DNA from: Nitrososphaerales archaeon
GTDB lineage: Archaea > Thermoproteota > Nitrososphaeria > Nitrososphaerales > Gagatemarchaeaceae
Direction: 5' to 3'
Length of the DNA stretch: 64,000 bases
Assembly (NCBI GenBank): GCA_014874415.1
Contig: JACWAI010000099.1
Span: 1 to 64,000 of the forward strand
Position 1 is the first letter of the stretch. The number at the start of each line of letters is the position of its first letter. The notes under the pieces are model-generated. The model did no database searches, was not told the DNA's origin, and saw only the letters and a list, made by a program, of their open reading frames with translations. The position numbers and the translations under genes were made by a program. Positions 3,557 through 14,441 of this stretch are shown here, one piece after another.

Positions 3557-3641
3557 CGGGCCTGGTGGGATTTGAATTCGCGGGCGCTTTGACGCCTCCC
3601 ACGGCATGCTGGTTACTCCCACTAGCTAGCTAAGACCCAAG
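3557..3641 (-). pseudogene. tRNA-Lys(CTT)-like 3' half with an insertion in the T-arm
   Basis: Read on the minus strand from 3641 this holds an anticodon-arm 5' strand CTTGG (3641-3637), GTCTTA with anticodon CTT, a 17-nt intron-like insert (3630-3614), then A-CCAGC, variable ATGCC, T-stem GTGGG, a 21-nt insert (3597-3577), T-loop TTCAAAT, T-stem CCCAC, acceptor strand CAGGCCC and discriminator G at 3557. It parallels the 3' half of the complete tRNA-Lys just upstream. The T-stem is fully paired despite differing from that copy. No 5' acceptor strand (GGGCCTG) or intact D-arm is found upstream. The anticodon stem has one C-C mismatch and one wobble. It may be a truncated duplicate or the 3' half of a split tRNA gene. 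Confidence 0.55.
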
Positions 3642-3682: not shown

Positions 3683-3808
3683 GCGGGCCCGCAGGGATTC
3701 GAACCCTGGGCATGCTGGTGACTCCGGTCAGACCTAAGAGCCAGCCGTTTTATGTCGTACACTCTAACCTGGCTTCTCGCAGAGGGTATCTGCTCTGAGC
3801 CACGGGCC
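3683..3808 (-). tRNA. tRNA-Lys (anticodon CTT) with three introns
   Basis: The 126-nt gene folds into a canonical 75-nt tRNA only if three segments are removed: 22 nt from the D-loop (3793-3772), 14 nt between positions 26 and 27 (3758-3745) and 15 nt at the canonical site 37/38 (3733-3719). Exons are 3808-3794, 3771-3759, 3744-3734 and 3718-3683. The product has acceptor GGGCCCG/CGGGCCC, D-arm GCTC-AGCCAGGTTA-GAGT, anticodon arm GCTGG-CTCTTAA-CCAGC, variable loop ATGCC, T-arm CAGGG-TTCGAAT-CCCTG and discriminator G. Exact borders can slide by a base without changing the product. A TATA-like CTTTAAACC lies 24-32 bases upstream at 3832-3840. Archaeal tRNA introns are removed by the EndA splicing endonuclease. 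Confidence 0.85.
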
Positions 3809-3831
3809 CTCGTGCGCCCGCGCTCAGTAGG

Positions 3832-3840
3832 CGGTTTAAA
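3832..3840 (-). promoter_or_regulatory. TATA box of the tRNA-Lys gene
   Basis: Minus-strand CTTTAAACC, 24-32 bases before the first tRNA base. It overlaps the stop codon of the upstream LAGLIDADG gene. Confidence 0.45.
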
Positions 3841-4513
3841 GGCTTGCTGAGTGCGGAACCAGTTTGTACCTCGGCCGGATGACCTCGAAGAATCGTCTGA
3901 TTTCACCCTGTGCCGTAATCCGGAGGGTGTAGACTCCGTCCTTTTCAATCAACCGGTTCGGATGGATACCGAGATTTACGAGTTCAGTTCGAATCTGATT
4001 CATCAACGTCCTCAATTTCATCCTAATCTGAATCACAAGGAGGTTGCTGTACACCTTCCGATGGGTGTTGTACATTTTCGAGTATCTTCTGTAAAGAGAT
4101 CCTTCGGCGTGGTATATCCCTCTAATGAAATGTTTGACTAATCCCTGTTTGAGTATTTCTGGTGGTATCGACGCGTCGAGTTTCTTCCCGATAGGAATGC
4201 CCAAACTTGCGAGGTAAAGTACTATCCTCTTGCTGCCGACACGAAGGCGTGTGGTATTATCGTTCCTGAGGTAAACCCGACATTTAACTGCGAAAGTGGT
4301 GTCGATGGTCGGTTTGACGAAGTCCTGGTAGTATAGATATTCGGCGGGACTTGCAGTGAATGCTACTTGATAACTGGACTGCCTTTGCGAAAGGTATTGA
4401 TAAATGCCGCCGTCTCCCAGGTTTAGACCTATTACTTCCGCAAGCTCGGGCGACATTTGCAAGGATTCTCGAAGCGTCAAGCCTCTAATTCGGTAATTGA
4501 ATCCAACGCCCAC
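3836..4513 (-). CDS. LAGLIDADG-family homing endonuclease
   Basis: A 225-residue single-chain protein with two LAGLIDADG-type helices: LAEVIGLNLGDG at about residues 24-35 and FIRGIYHAEGS at about 129-139. Each keeps the acidic residue just before the final Gly that binds the catalytic metal. Between and after them is the expected alpha-beta DNA-binding fold. It starts at GTG 4513 and ends 27 bases before the intron-containing tRNA-Lys on the same strand. Such enzymes spread introns, inteins or themselves by cutting DNA. Here it is free-standing, and whether it is linked to the tRNA introns is inference. The patch reads AT-richer than its flanks. Confidence 0.85.
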   Translation of the reverse strand: MGVGFNYRIRGLTLRESLQMSPELAEVIGLNLGDGGIYQYLSQRQSSYQVAFTASPAEYLYYQDFVKPTIDTTFAVKCRVYLRNDNTTRLRVGSKRIVLYLASLGIPIGKKLDASIPPEILKQGLVKHFIRGIYHAEGSLYRRYSKMYNTHRKVYSNLLVIQIRMKLRTLMNQIRTELVNLGIHPNRLIEKDGVYTLRITAQGEIRRFFEVIRPRYKLVPHSASL

Positions 4514-4658: not shown

Positions 4659-5699
4659 TTGGGTCGCCTCAGCTTCGTCGGCCTCGGTCTTGGAGCGAAG
4701 GGAGTCACCCTCGAAGGGGTGGGAGAGATGATTGGGGCCGACATCAACTACCTCGAGTATTACACCACCCCTCACGAGCCGCAGCTCCTGAGGCAGGTCC
4801 AGAACGCGACGGGCAAGGCTTTCACGATAGTCGACAGACAGTTCGTTGAGGACGGAAGCAAGATCCTGGGAGAAGCAGACGCCAAAAAGGTCGTCCTGGC
4901 TGTTCTCGGAGACCCCATGATAGCCACGACTCACAACGAGCTCCGCGTCAGGGGGATCAAGCTCGGGATTGAGACCCGCGTCATCCATTCGGCCACGATA
5001 GCTTCGGCAGCCGCTAGCGCCTCTGGACTCCACTCCTATAAGTTCTCGAGGACTGTCACCGTGACCCGCGAGTCGGTAGGAAAGCTGACCCAGGCGTACC
5101 ACATCCTGCACGAGAACCTCCTCGAAGGAGCCCACACCCTCCTGCTCCTCGAGTATGACGTCCAGAGCGGCGAAGGCGTGTCGCCTGCCGATGCCCTGGC
5201 CGGGCTCCTGCTGGCCGAGGGGAACTTCAAACGCGGGGTCGTCGGCGAAGGGACTTTCGCGATATTGCTCTCGAGGCTAGGTAGGGAAGACGCGGGGATT
5301 GCAGCCGGGACCTTTGTAGAGCTATCAAAGAAAGAAGTGGGAGGTCCTCCCCATTGTTTGGTCATCCCGGGGAAGCTCCACTTCACAGAGGTCGAGGCAA
5401 TATCGGCGATCTTCTCTGTCAAGCAGCCCGATGTCAAGGGCAACTCAGACGGGGTCCTTAGGACCGCCCAGACTCTTGTGCCCAGGTATGTCGCAAAGAC
5501 AAGACGCGCGCTCGACTCGGTCAAGCCCAGGGTAGGTCCTCAGTACGAGCACGTCATGGAGAACGCAGAGCTGTACATGAAAGACGCGGAGAGTTTCCTG
5601 GCAAACGGGGAGGACGAAATGGCGATGCTGAGCATAGGCTACGCCGAAGGGCTTTTGGATTCGCTTTCCTTCGCAGGCGTCGTCAAGATAGACTGGTAG
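4659..5699 (+). CDS. dph5: diphthine synthase (Dph5) fused to a C-terminal DUF357 domain
   Basis: S-adenosylmethionine-dependent methyltransferase that methylates the modified histidine of aEF2 during diphthamide synthesis. Residues about 1-260 are the tetrapyrrole-methylase-type Dph5 domain, opening with LSFVGLGLGAKGVTLEG and containing VLGDPMIATTH. The last about 80 residues (VAKTRRALDSV, then YMKDAESFLANGEDEMAML) are a helical DUF357 domain, which makes this protein longer (346 residues) than a plain Dph5. TTG 4659 is the start. The cytidylyltransferase gene begins two bases after the stop, so the two form an operon. Confidence 0.92.
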   Translation: MGRLSFVGLGLGAKGVTLEGVGEMIGADINYLEYYTTPHEPQLLRQVQNATGKAFTIVDRQFVEDGSKILGEADAKKVVLAVLGDPMIATTHNELRVRGIKLGIETRVIHSATIASAAASASGLHSYKFSRTVTVTRESVGKLTQAYHILHENLLEGAHTLLLLEYDVQSGEGVSPADALAGLLLAEGNFKRGVVGEGTFAILLSRLGREDAGIAAGTFVELSKKEVGGPPHCLVIPGKLHFTEVEAISAIFSVKQPDVKGNSDGVLRTAQTLVPRYVAKTRRALDSVKPRVGPQYEHVMENAELYMKDAESFLANGEDEMAMLSIGYAEGLLDSLSFAGVVKIDW

Positions 5700-7090: not shown

Positions 7091-7753
7091 ATGGAACTTT
7101 ATCTTAAAGGTCACCCCTGGTGGTGTAATCCGAATTTGGGAGGTTCTTCAAAATGGAAGAAGGTACCAGTCAAATGCGTGGTCTGCGGCGTGTTCTTCAT
7201 CAGGAAGGCCCACTGGGGGGAAAGGCTCTGCTCACGAGACTGTTCGAGGAAGCAACATACTTTCCTTCACGCGAGATACGTCGAGAGGAACAAGGAACAC
7301 ATCAGACAATATGCAGCCTCATGGAAATATAAGGTGTGGGGGAAATCCAACAAAGACGTCGCAAAGAGAGCGGAGGAAATTGCGGCCAACGGGATCTTGC
7401 CTGGCCTTGGGCTGTCGCGAGTGGTTCACGTTTCAAAGCTTAGAAGGTTGGTACCTTTCGACATCGTTGGAATGACGAATGGGGAACGGGTCCTTGTGGA
7501 TGTTACAACGTCATACTGCAAGAGTGGACCTTACTACAAGACCGCTGTCTCTCTTGCAAACGCCCTTGGGATGAAGCTATTTGTTCTGTTCGTAAAACCT
7601 GACTTGTCACAGTTCGCGATGAAGCCCGCTTCGAAGGCTCGCGGGGCGTATTGTTCGACTCGGGATCTTCAAGCGATAGTCCCCAACAAACTTGGAGGGA
7701 ACGGACTTGTGGGCGCTACGACAGCTGTCTCCGACCGCAGCCAGGAACCTTGA
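7091..7753 (+). CDS. zinc-finger protein with PD-(D/E)XK nuclease-like domain, copy 1
   Basis: A 220-residue protein I do not recognise as a named family. Cys29, Cys32, Cys47 and Cys51 (CVVC and CSRDC) form a zinc finger. A basic linker with KYKVWGKSNKDV follows, then a domain with Glu95/96, VPFDIVG (Asp124) and RVLVDVTT (Asp137), a spacing reminiscent of PD-(D/E)XK nucleases, but with DVT where ExK is expected. Lys144 or Lys150 may substitute. The next gene is a clear paralogue whose ATG overlaps this stop (TGATG), so the two are translationally coupled. The gene reads AT-richer than its surroundings. Role in DNA cleavage, defence or mobility is inference. Confidence 0.6.
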   Translation: MELYLKGHPWWCNPNLGGSSKWKKVPVKCVVCGVFFIRKAHWGERLCSRDCSRKQHTFLHARYVERNKEHIRQYAASWKYKVWGKSNKDVAKRAEEIAANGILPGLGLSRVVHVSKLRRLVPFDIVGMTNGERVLVDVTTSYCKSGPYYKTAVSLANALGMKLFVLFVKPDLSQFAMKPASKARGAYCSTRDLQAIVPNKLGGNGLVGATTAVSDRSQEP

Positions 7754-8310
7754 TGTCCAAATCGAACACCTCGTTAGAACCAGATGCCGGCAAAGATTTC
7801 ACTTGCAAGATCTGCGGCAAGGTCTTCCACAAACCTAACCGCTATCGATATTCATATTGCTCGGAGCAGTGTCGAATCAAAGGGAAAGCTCTCGTTCATC
7901 GCATGTACGCCAAGGAAAACGGTGAGCACCTTAGAGCCTACGAAAAACAACGGCGCTACAAGATTTGGGGCACATCGAATCGCGAGACTGGCAATATTGC
8001 AGAACTATTTGCGATGCGACGCTTGCTACCATCTCTCGGCTTTACCAACATCTTCCATGCCTCGAGCGATCGTCGATTCGTCCCATTCGATTTCGTCGCC
8101 ACGTTTCAAGGTGATAGGGTTCTTGTCGACGTTACCACAGGCATGAGGAAGAGTGGAGGATACAGCAAAACAGGCATCATGGTCGCGAACGCGTTGCACA
8201 TGCGTCTCATTAGAGTGTTTATCAAACCAGATTTTACTGGCTTCATGGTTCGTGATGCTTCGGAGGGTGGAGGAATAATCCTGAATAGGGTGAAGCCTCT
8301 TCCCAAATAG
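7753..8310 (+). CDS. zinc-finger protein with PD-(D/E)XK nuclease-like domain, copy 2
   Basis: A 185-residue paralogue of the preceding gene: zinc ligands Cys18, Cys21, Cys36 and Cys40, shared linker YKIWGTSNRETG, then Glu84, VPFDFVA (Asp113) and RVLVDVTTG (Asp126). The conserved acidic positions in both copies argue that they are the active or metal-binding residues. I chose ATG 7753, which overlaps the stop of copy 1, although the frame is open further upstream inside copy 1. A strong AGGAGGT overlaps its stop codon and belongs to the next gene. Divergence between the copies is large, so the duplication is not recent. Confidence 0.6.
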   Translation: MSKSNTSLEPDAGKDFTCKICGKVFHKPNRYRYSYCSEQCRIKGKALVHRMYAKENGEHLRAYEKQRRYKIWGTSNRETGNIAELFAMRRLLPSLGFTNIFHASSDRRFVPFDFVATFQGDRVLVDVTTGMRKSGGYSKTGIMVANALHMRLIRVFIKPDFTGFMVRDASEGGGIILNRVKPLPK

Positions 8311-13292: not shown

Positions 13293-14441
13293 TCAGCCGT
13301 CTACTAGAAGCGAACGGACCTCAGCCGATGCCACCACCTTTGCGACCCGCAGCAGGCCCGGGAGCCCAAGGGCTCCAAGGACCGCGCTCGCATGGAAATC
13401 GAAGTCGCTGTGTGAGAGCTTCTGGACGAGCTTCGGGGTCGCAAGGGCCGTGAGCAGGGCCTCCATGTCCGCGTTGGAGAGCTTCTCGAGGACACCCCTC
13501 AGCCTCATCATAGACTTCGTCTCCTTCAGGAAGGCCGCTTCCCACTCAGGCTGGTAGTTCGCAAGCAGCCCTGGCTTGCCTTCTCCGAGGCTGACGCAGG
13601 TCCATTTCGCCGCGATGACTGCGCCGGCGATCGACGTCATGATCCCGCCGGCCGTCGTCGGTTTGACCTGCCCAGCTGACTCCCCCACGAGGATGCGTCT
13701 GCCAATAACGAACCTCTGGGCCGGTCCTCCGACATAGATGGGGGCCGAGACCTTTCGTAGGATCTTGTGGTGCCGGCCGGCTAGGAATCCGTCCAGCGCC
13801 TTGAAGGGATTTACCCCGCGACCTGCTGCTCCCACCTTGGCCAGATGCTTGCCGTAAGGTATCACCCATGCGAAGAAGCCGGGATAGCGCTCGGCGTCCA
13901 TGAAGACTTCGACCACGTGCTGCCTGATCCAGTCCCCCTCGATTTCGTACTTCGCCGCGGGGAGTATCCCTCGCCTCAGGCTCGAAGACGGGCCAGTGGC
14001 GTCCACGAAATATCTCGAGCGGACTTCGGCACCCCCCATTTTCACCTCGACTTCTGTGCCCTTCTCGACGGAGTTGGTCACGCGGGTTCCCGTCATGATT
14101 TCAGCCCCGTTCGACGACGCCGCTTTGGCGACCTGCTTGTCGTAGGCGCTTCTGTCGAGGACGACCACGTCAAGGGCTGTCGCGTCTACCGCGACCTGGC
14201 GTCCAGAGGGAGAGTGGATTAGAGCGGTGCCTATTTCGTTCTGGATGACGCTCTGTTCAGGAGGATAGCCGTACCTTCTCAGCCCGCGGAGGCTCACGAG
14301 CCCGTCGCACTTCTCCGGCTCACCGATCTCGTCATGCTCCTCTGCGACGAGTACCCTGGCGCCGCGCCTGGCCGCCTCGGCAGCGAAGGCGAGGCCCGCG
14401 ATGCTTCCACCGGCAACAACGACGTCGTAATCTTGCGCCAA
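13293..14441 (-). CDS. geranylgeranyl reductase family flavoprotein
   Basis: FAD-dependent reductase that saturates isoprenoid chains of archaeal membrane lipids, or a relative. Of 382 residues, the start DVVVAGGSIAGLAFAAEAA is a Rossmann GxGxxG variant (GGSIAG), GEPEKCDGLVS is the family CxG motif around residue 42-52, and GESAGQVKPTTAGGI is the second FAD-binding motif (usually GDAAG). Start probably at TTG or ATG 14441, with a minus-strand TATA-like GATTAAG at 14464-14470. It shares a divergent promoter region with pth2. Confidence 0.88.
   Translation of the reverse strand: MAQDYDVVVAGGSIAGLAFAAEAARRGARVLVAEEHDEIGEPEKCDGLVSLRGLRRYGYPPEQSVIQNEIGTALIHSPSGRQVAVDATALDVVVLDRSAYDKQVAKAASSNGAEIMTGTRVTNSVEKGTEVEVKMGGAEVRSRYFVDATGPSSSLRRGILPAAKYEIEGDWIRQHVVEVFMDAERYPGFFAWVIPYGKHLAKVGAAGRGVNPFKALDGFLAGRHHKILRKVSAPIYVGGPAQRFVIGRRILVGESAGQVKPTTAGGIMTSIAGAVIAAKWTCVSLGEGKPGLLANYQPEWEAAFLKETKSMMRLRGVLEKLSNADMEALLTALATPKLVQKLSHSDFDFHASAVLGALGLPGLLRVAKVVASAEVRSLLVDG

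Follow-up and report, generated by a model that had tools for sequence, protein, structure and literature searches.

A three-intron tRNA-Lys(CTT) gene beside a LAGLIDADG gene in a Nitrososphaeria archaeon, and possible endonuclease-driven replacement of tRNA alleles

Introduction

Several introns within one tRNA gene are a known feature of some archaea: Pyrobaculum calidifontis has 71 introns in 46 tRNA genes, three introns in a single tRNA have already been described, and the multi-intron tRNAs of Thermoproteales and Thaumarchaeota carry up to three short bulge-helix-bulge (BHB) introns each, at canonical and non-canonical positions, together with a heteromeric splicing endonuclease, EndA (PMC8450103). 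How archaea acquire such introns and how these move has yet to be explained; none of the tRNA introns known is nearly long enough to code for a mobility enzyme. Here we describe a tRNA-Lys(CTT) gene with three short introns, and the LAGLIDADG homing endonuclease-like gene that adjoins it, in a 64,000-nucleotide stretch of contig JACWAI010000099.1 (below, the window). The contig belongs to a metagenome-assembled genome (MAG; 1.69 Mb, 114 contigs, 91.6% complete) of an uncultured soil or mine-drainage Nitrososphaeria archaeon. This placement follows from the dph5 protein encoded beside the tRNA gene, whose named relatives come mostly from MAGs labelled Thaumarchaeota, Nitrososphaerota, Nitrososphaerales or just archaeon; membership in group I.1c (Gagatemarchaeaceae) is plausible. 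We favour, with a probability of about 0.58 on present sequence evidence, the reading that the allele in the window arrived as a cassette with its LAGLIDADG neighbour, by endonuclease-driven replacement of a resident tRNA allele, and we propose that such replacement spreads the introns.

As in the multi-intron tRNAs described earlier, the introns are short and occupy canonical and non-canonical sites. The present case differs from those in its lineage (Nitrososphaeria, not the Thermoproteales that the earlier note on this DNA named as the main source of such tRNAs), in the variation of one orthologous locus among close relatives, and in the association with homing endonuclease genes (HEGs). 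Another parallel is the Caldiarchaeum tRNA-Thr(GGU) gene, for which Sugahara et al. 2012 (PMC3293823) attributed a 24/25 intron gain and a leftover tRNA fragment to integration of an element that carries a recombinase. Both cases combine gain at 24/25, a fragment of the old tRNA, an insert between the fragments and a suggested mobile-element origin; however, the Caldiarchaeum insert is 1.8 kb long, encodes a putative recombinase and concerns one tRNA in one population, whereas in the present case the genes are of the LAGLIDADG type, more than one tRNA and a large number of species are involved, and whole genes have apparently been replaced. SegB of the T-even phages, likewise a free-standing homing endonuclease adjoining tRNA genes, drives their inheritance and amplification (PMC13096335), but it is a phage GIY-YIG enzyme, whereas the genes studied here are LAGLIDADG genes on an archaeal chromosome beside intron-bearing tRNAs.

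I-DmoI and other endonucleases of archaeal rRNA introns share with the protein described here both LAGLIDADG motifs and the (here predicted) fold. The BHB introns that host enzymes of the I-DmoI type are spliced by EndA. I-DmoI is encoded within its intron, whereas here the gene lies outside tRNA introns of 14-22 nt. In the literature that we searched, whose coverage is incomplete, we found no account of free-standing LAGLIDADG genes beside archaeal tRNA genes, nor of their linkage to block-swapped, intron-bearing alleles. Since tRNAs with three introns have been described before, the tRNA-Lys gene alone belongs to a known class; what seems new is that LAGLIDADG genes are linked to archaeal tRNA alleles which carry introns and are exchanged whole.

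Results

The tRNA-Lys(CTT) gene spans 126 nt on the minus strand (3684-3809, one position higher than first given), and removal of inserts of 22, 14 and 15 nt leaves exons of 15+11+13+36 nt that join into a 75-nt tRNA with all four stems complete. The locus is laid out as follows.

3684..3809, minus strand: tRNA-Lys(CTT) gene with three introns; exons equal those of relatives; sole copy found in the genome
3795..3809, minus strand: exon 1, tRNA positions 1-15
3773..3794, minus strand: intron 1 (22 nt) in the D-loop at 15/16; AG^A ... GAGA AG^C, covarying inner helix GCAGA/TCTGC; junction placed by intron-less relatives (L044, L048)
3762..3772, minus strand: exon 2, positions 16-24
3748..3761, minus strand: intron 2, 14 nt, D-stem 24/25; junction taken from relatives reading AGAGCGG, relaxed BHB
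3735..3747, minus strand: exon 3, positions 25-37, anticodon CTT
3720..3734, minus strand: intron 3, 15 nt, canonical 37/38; central helix CTCT/GGAG, exon helix CTGG/CCAG; placed by intron-less relatives
3684..3719, minus strand: exon 4, positions 38-73
3835..3840, minus strand: TTTAAA, TATA-like promoter element of tRNA-Lys, read from the sequence; overlaps the stop codon of the LAGLIDADG open reading frame (ORF)

The spliced exons match uninterrupted tRNA-Lys genes of relatives base for base at most positions, which excludes a chance origin of the pattern. Moreover, comparison of the orthologous genes showed that each of the three introns is missing from some relative, so that all three junctions are fixed without any structural model. 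The D-loop intron is absent in G043 and G041, which read GCTCAGCCAGG across 15/16 (on sequence alone this junction can slide by 1-2 nt); the D-stem intron is absent in G034, G048 and the G016 group, with G016 reading AGAGCGGCTGG; and the anticodon intron is absent in G013, G017, G009 and G033, which read CTCTTAACCAGC across 37/38. These junctions bear out the earlier proposal of three introns, two of them non-canonical, and its placement of the D-loop and 37/38 introns. The third placement, at 26/27, lay two nucleotides too far and would put U25 in place of C25: the window gene reads AGAG, then TGTACGACATAAAA, then CGG, and intron-less relatives read AGAGCGG, which sets the junction at 24/25.

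ARAGORN found no tRNA in the raw window and Rfam nothing above threshold, and the Rfam tRNA model gave only 16 bits on the unspliced gene; annotation would therefore miss this tRNA, an example of how standard procedures overlook such genes. Once the introns were removed, ARAGORN called Lys(ctt) even on a version shifted by one base. A second complete tRNA-Lys(CTT), which the earlier note had counted, together with the lack of any spliced product, as evidence that would speak against its reading, was searched for with the spliced tRNA and none was found in this genome at its 91.6% completeness; in a pattern search of 61 genomes, most members of the genus had a single copy. The CTTTAA context of the promoter element recurs 5' of tRNA-Lys in several relatives. 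Judged by its sequence, the locus is most likely a working gene whose transcript is spliced. We also considered a split, trans-spliced tRNA and rejected it; the gene is complete, and an extra 3' fragment nearby (below) is a redundant remnant.

The space between this gene and its divergent neighbour dph5 is occupied by a LAGLIDADG ORF, and a piece of another tRNA-Lys allele lies on the other side, some 43 nt downstream. Neither the ORF nor the fragment had been mentioned in the earlier note.

3836..4513, minus strand: LAGLIDADG homing endonuclease-like ORF, 225 amino acids, motifs GLNLGDGG and IRGIYHAEGS; Pfam PF14528 (LAGLIDADG_3) above cut-off
4659..5699, plus strand: dph5 (diphthine synthase; NCBIfam TIGR00522), divergent neighbour that anchors the locus
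3557..3641 (start approximate), minus strand: piece of another tRNA-Lys(CTT) allele that has lost its 5' part and had introns at 37/38 and 53/54; matches intact two-intron genes of relatives (e.g. L051-L067)

Both LAGLIDADG motifs and both catalytic acids are present in the 225-residue product, which matches I-DmoI in sequence (E 1.7e-6). I-DmoI is also the top Foldseek match of the predicted model (E 7e-10; mean predicted local distance difference test score 67). With two motifs carrying catalytic acids and a modelled alpha-beta-beta-alpha-beta-beta-alpha fold, the product is a predicted LAGLIDADG protein; its endonuclease activity and its target are putative.

The gene dph5 adjoins tRNA-Lys(CTT) in nearly all relatives. 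The locus was compared across about 35 of them, and a dph5 tree was built for 35 genomes. Across these orthologs introns occupy four sites (15/16, 24/25 or 22/23, 37/38 and 53/54). Seven combinations that contain introns occur, among them different sets of three, and each site changes state 6-8 times on the tree. The earlier note called three introns in a single tRNA rare, yet they are common here: the exact set of the window gene occurs in three other species and a different set of three in others.

A related ORF on the 5' side is found at the same place in G005, G009, G035 and G043 (the last with a shorter ORF) and is broken in G001, G013 and G030; these seven genomes on the tree all carry the 24/25 intron (as the 22/23 variant in G001), and presence of the ORF changes seven times. 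In G010 and G024 a different LAGLIDADG ORF stands 3' of tRNA-Lys, and in each of the two the tRNA allele carries an intron at 53/54. At tRNA-Lys, every endonuclease ORF seen thus accompanied an allele whose adjacent arm holds an intron. Alleles with a HEG had the 24/25 intron in 9/9 cases, compared with 12/26 of those lacking one (Fisher p 0.005, a value that ignores phylogeny).

In each of two supported sister pairs, G013/G016 and G009/G014, a HEG accompanies introns in the D-arm in one species, and its partner lacks the HEG and carries the 37/38 plus 53/54 set. The flanking genes are 84-88% identical in DNA, and this similarity ends at the dph5 start codon and resumes only past the tRNA, except for a 158-bp stretch at 69% inside the dissimilar segment of G009/G014. 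In control pairs with unchanged intron sets, the alignment runs continuously through the tRNA even at 72-74% identity. Similarity was lost in the sister pairs and not in the controls, and we therefore conclude that the allele was exchanged as a block with the endonuclease gene.

The intron set of the remnant in the window is typical of other species; its 5' part was sought upstream of the LAGLIDADG ORF, and none was found there. In G010 the order is tRNA-Lys with the 53/54 intron, the endonuclease, and then GTGGGTTCGAATCCCACCGGGCCCG, a tRNA 3' end without that intron; here the resident and the incoming copy are indistinguishable. G024 has a similar arrangement, and its displaced intronless 3' end comes from a different allele. 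G033 contains a new tRNA-Lys gene, a 1.2-kb insert and the old gene minus its first 9 nt; the 408-amino-acid ORF that fills the insert (L090, C3, 1579-2805, plus strand) has no Pfam or PDB relative and is possibly another mobility protein.

Extending the comparison to other tRNAs, we collected 21 other free-standing LAGLIDADG genes of the genus, selected for the length of their open frames, whatever their neighbours. For nine of the 21 a tRNA gene stands no more than about 150 bp away (Tyr in two cases, Cys, Gln, Leu and Ser in one each, and three others), where 2-5% would be expected if genomes have about 46 tRNA genes (binomial p 1e-10 to 3e-7). Among 16 genomes compared for tRNA-Gln(TTG), G002 alone has an intron (10/11 region) and G002 alone has a HEG, which touches the first base of the gene. 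For tRNA-Cys (14 genomes), both 3'-end HEGs stand at alleles with a T-loop intron, and the 12 genomes without a HEG comprise seven with the intron and five without. In none of the genomes compared for Lys, Gln or Cys did we see a HEG beside an allele lacking the adjacent-arm intron, and the rule also holds for tRNA-Tyr of G017. As read from these sequences, the states at Lys, Gln and Cys form the pattern that a homing cycle would produce: empty, occupied with a HEG, and occupied without one. Displaced tRNA fragments were also sought at the non-Lys endonuclease loci and were not found.

Two tRNA-Tyr loci have further peculiarities. In the window's own genome (G000, C38, 1-2600, L160), a 325-amino-acid LAGLIDADG ORF, one of the nine, faces the 3' end of tRNA-Tyr(GTA), which has an apparent D-stem intron and a ~45-nt insert in the 37/38 region and was missed by the tRNA family search. 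The tRNA-Tyr beside a LAGLIDADG ORF in G017 (C14, L164) seemingly has three introns, one of which, near 59/60, is absent from its G000 counterpart.

The BHB motif expected at each junction was good for introns 1 and 3 and poor for intron 2. In nine alleles of intron 1 the AG^N bulges and the GAG of the central helix are constant, and the inner helix changes in sequence yet stays paired (GCAGA/TCTGC, GCGG/CCGC, GTAG/CTAC, GCG/CGC), a covariation that speaks for a BHB. For intron 3 the exon helix is complete, and the central helix is CTCT/GGAG. All three introns fall within 75 nt and use common exon strands, which makes an ordered removal probable.

As the earlier note had envisaged, a PF01974 profile search identified two EndA genes in the genome. 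The alpha subunit is of the crenarchaeal catalytic type: it aligns from end to end (180 residues) with 3P1Z, the catalytic subunit from A. pernix, including the catalytic His, the residue replaced by Ala in 3AJV; in the second subunit this His is absent. A third match, within the window at 14175, was below the cut-off and contains a stop, and was dismissed. The alpha2beta2 form of EndA is assigned to Thaumarchaeota and Crenarchaeota and linked to unusual introns (review, PMC4090602). Going by its sequence, the gene pair is the arrangement of such broad-specificity enzymes, and the tRNA-Lys transcript would be cut by one of them at three BHB-like sites and then religated.

With respect to introns elsewhere in this genome, tRNA-Lys(TTT) (C91, 491-559 plus flanks, minus strand) looks doubly interrupted, in the D-loop and variable region. 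By a rough count by eye, about two-thirds of some 30 tRNA genes have introns, many of them non-canonical (D-loop, 24/25, variable region, T-loop).

Discussion

These observations are more likely than not explained by a cycle in which the endonuclease would cut a resident tRNA-Lys allele that has no intron at the adjacent site. Repair, with the incoming copy as template, would then replace the resident gene, co-converting endonuclease, introns and the whole tRNA. The introns would then shield the new copy from further cutting, a protective role that we presume, and imprecise repair might occasionally leave a piece of the old tRNA, as at 3557-3641. The broader proposal is that in this genus tRNA genes without introns are the targets of free-standing LAGLIDADG endonucleases, which carry intron-bearing alleles along, so that introns too small to encode an endonuclease would still spread as selfish site-protecting inserts (collaborative homing). 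It is more tentative, and we put it slightly below even odds. The joint change of intron set, tRNA allele and adjacent HEG between sister species offers a concrete candidate enzyme and target. If true, the proposal would supply a mechanism, open to experiment, for the spread of tRNA introns between archaeal species, and could shed light on the concentration of intron-rich tRNAs in certain lineages.

Several of our observations weigh against allele replacement by the endonuclease. On the tree the association between HEG and intron comes down to seven independent contrasts, 3-4 of them concordant and none discordant (p ~0.125, not significant), and intron-bearing alleles without a HEG are numerous. 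Between G001 and G022 the HEG is a pure insertion and the tRNA is unchanged, and a HEG can therefore come or go without tRNA replacement. At tRNA-Ser and at the tRNA-Tyr of G000 the arm nearest the HEG has no intron, and some other free-standing HEGs adjoin protein genes. With respect to splicing, intron 2 forms a weak, relaxed BHB (3/4 central pairs, exon helix not in register), and an unconstrained minimum-energy fold does not show all of the BHBs.

Part of this evidence would suit another account, in which the gene is an ordinary multi-intron tRNA. Its introns would have come and gone by an unrelated route, for instance through reverse splicing or when tRNA genes recombined with one another, and the LAGLIDADG gene would be a harmless lodger in a conserved intergenic slot. 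Multiple non-canonical introns are indeed known from Crenarchaeota and Thaumarchaeota (PMC8450103), G026, G027, G017 and G033 have the D-loop and 24/25 introns with no HEG, and G001 and G022 differ in HEG with the same tRNA. A lodger, however, would hardly account for the lack of any HEG beside Lys, Gln or Cys alleles without the adjacent-arm intron, for HEG differences that accompany whole-segment replacement in both sister pairs, unlike the controls, or for displaced tRNA fragments adjoining HEGs, and we regard this account as unlikely, if worth keeping in mind. We give still less credit to an integrase-type element (plasmid or virus) that brought an intron-bearing tRNA end to tRNA-Lys with the endonuclease as cargo or later hitchhiker: in G010 and G024 the tRNA 3' end is directly repeated at a spacing of about 0.7 kb, and these repeats do resemble att sites, and the Caldiarchaeum tRNA-Thr fragment accompanies an intron gained at 24/25, a position used here too (PMC3293823), but the G010 and G024 inserts encode a LAGLIDADG ORF only and no recombinase, the window and other genomes have the HEG 5' of the tRNA, and the replacement tracts span the whole tRNA and not one end.

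It is very improbable that the 126-nt locus is a decayed, unspliced pseudogene, with AAG codons read by tRNA-Lys(TTT). Another copy could be missing from a MAG that is 91.6% complete; against this, the exons are intact, the cloverleaf is perfect, a promoter is present, and other genomes of the genus also have a single tRNA-Lys(CTT) at this syntenic place.

Additional observations

LAGLIDADG elements are very abundant in the genus. The genome of the window has 20 PF14528 matches, mostly within long open frames and presumably inteins, and in several species free-standing LAGLIDADG genes recur between peroxiredoxin-like and superoxide dismutase-like genes (by eye; L164, L173, L178). Elsewhere in the window, at 7091-8310 on the plus strand, two adjacent similar ORFs of 220 and 219 amino acids share a cysteine cluster and have no confident family assignment; they may represent a duplicated nuclease-like gene.
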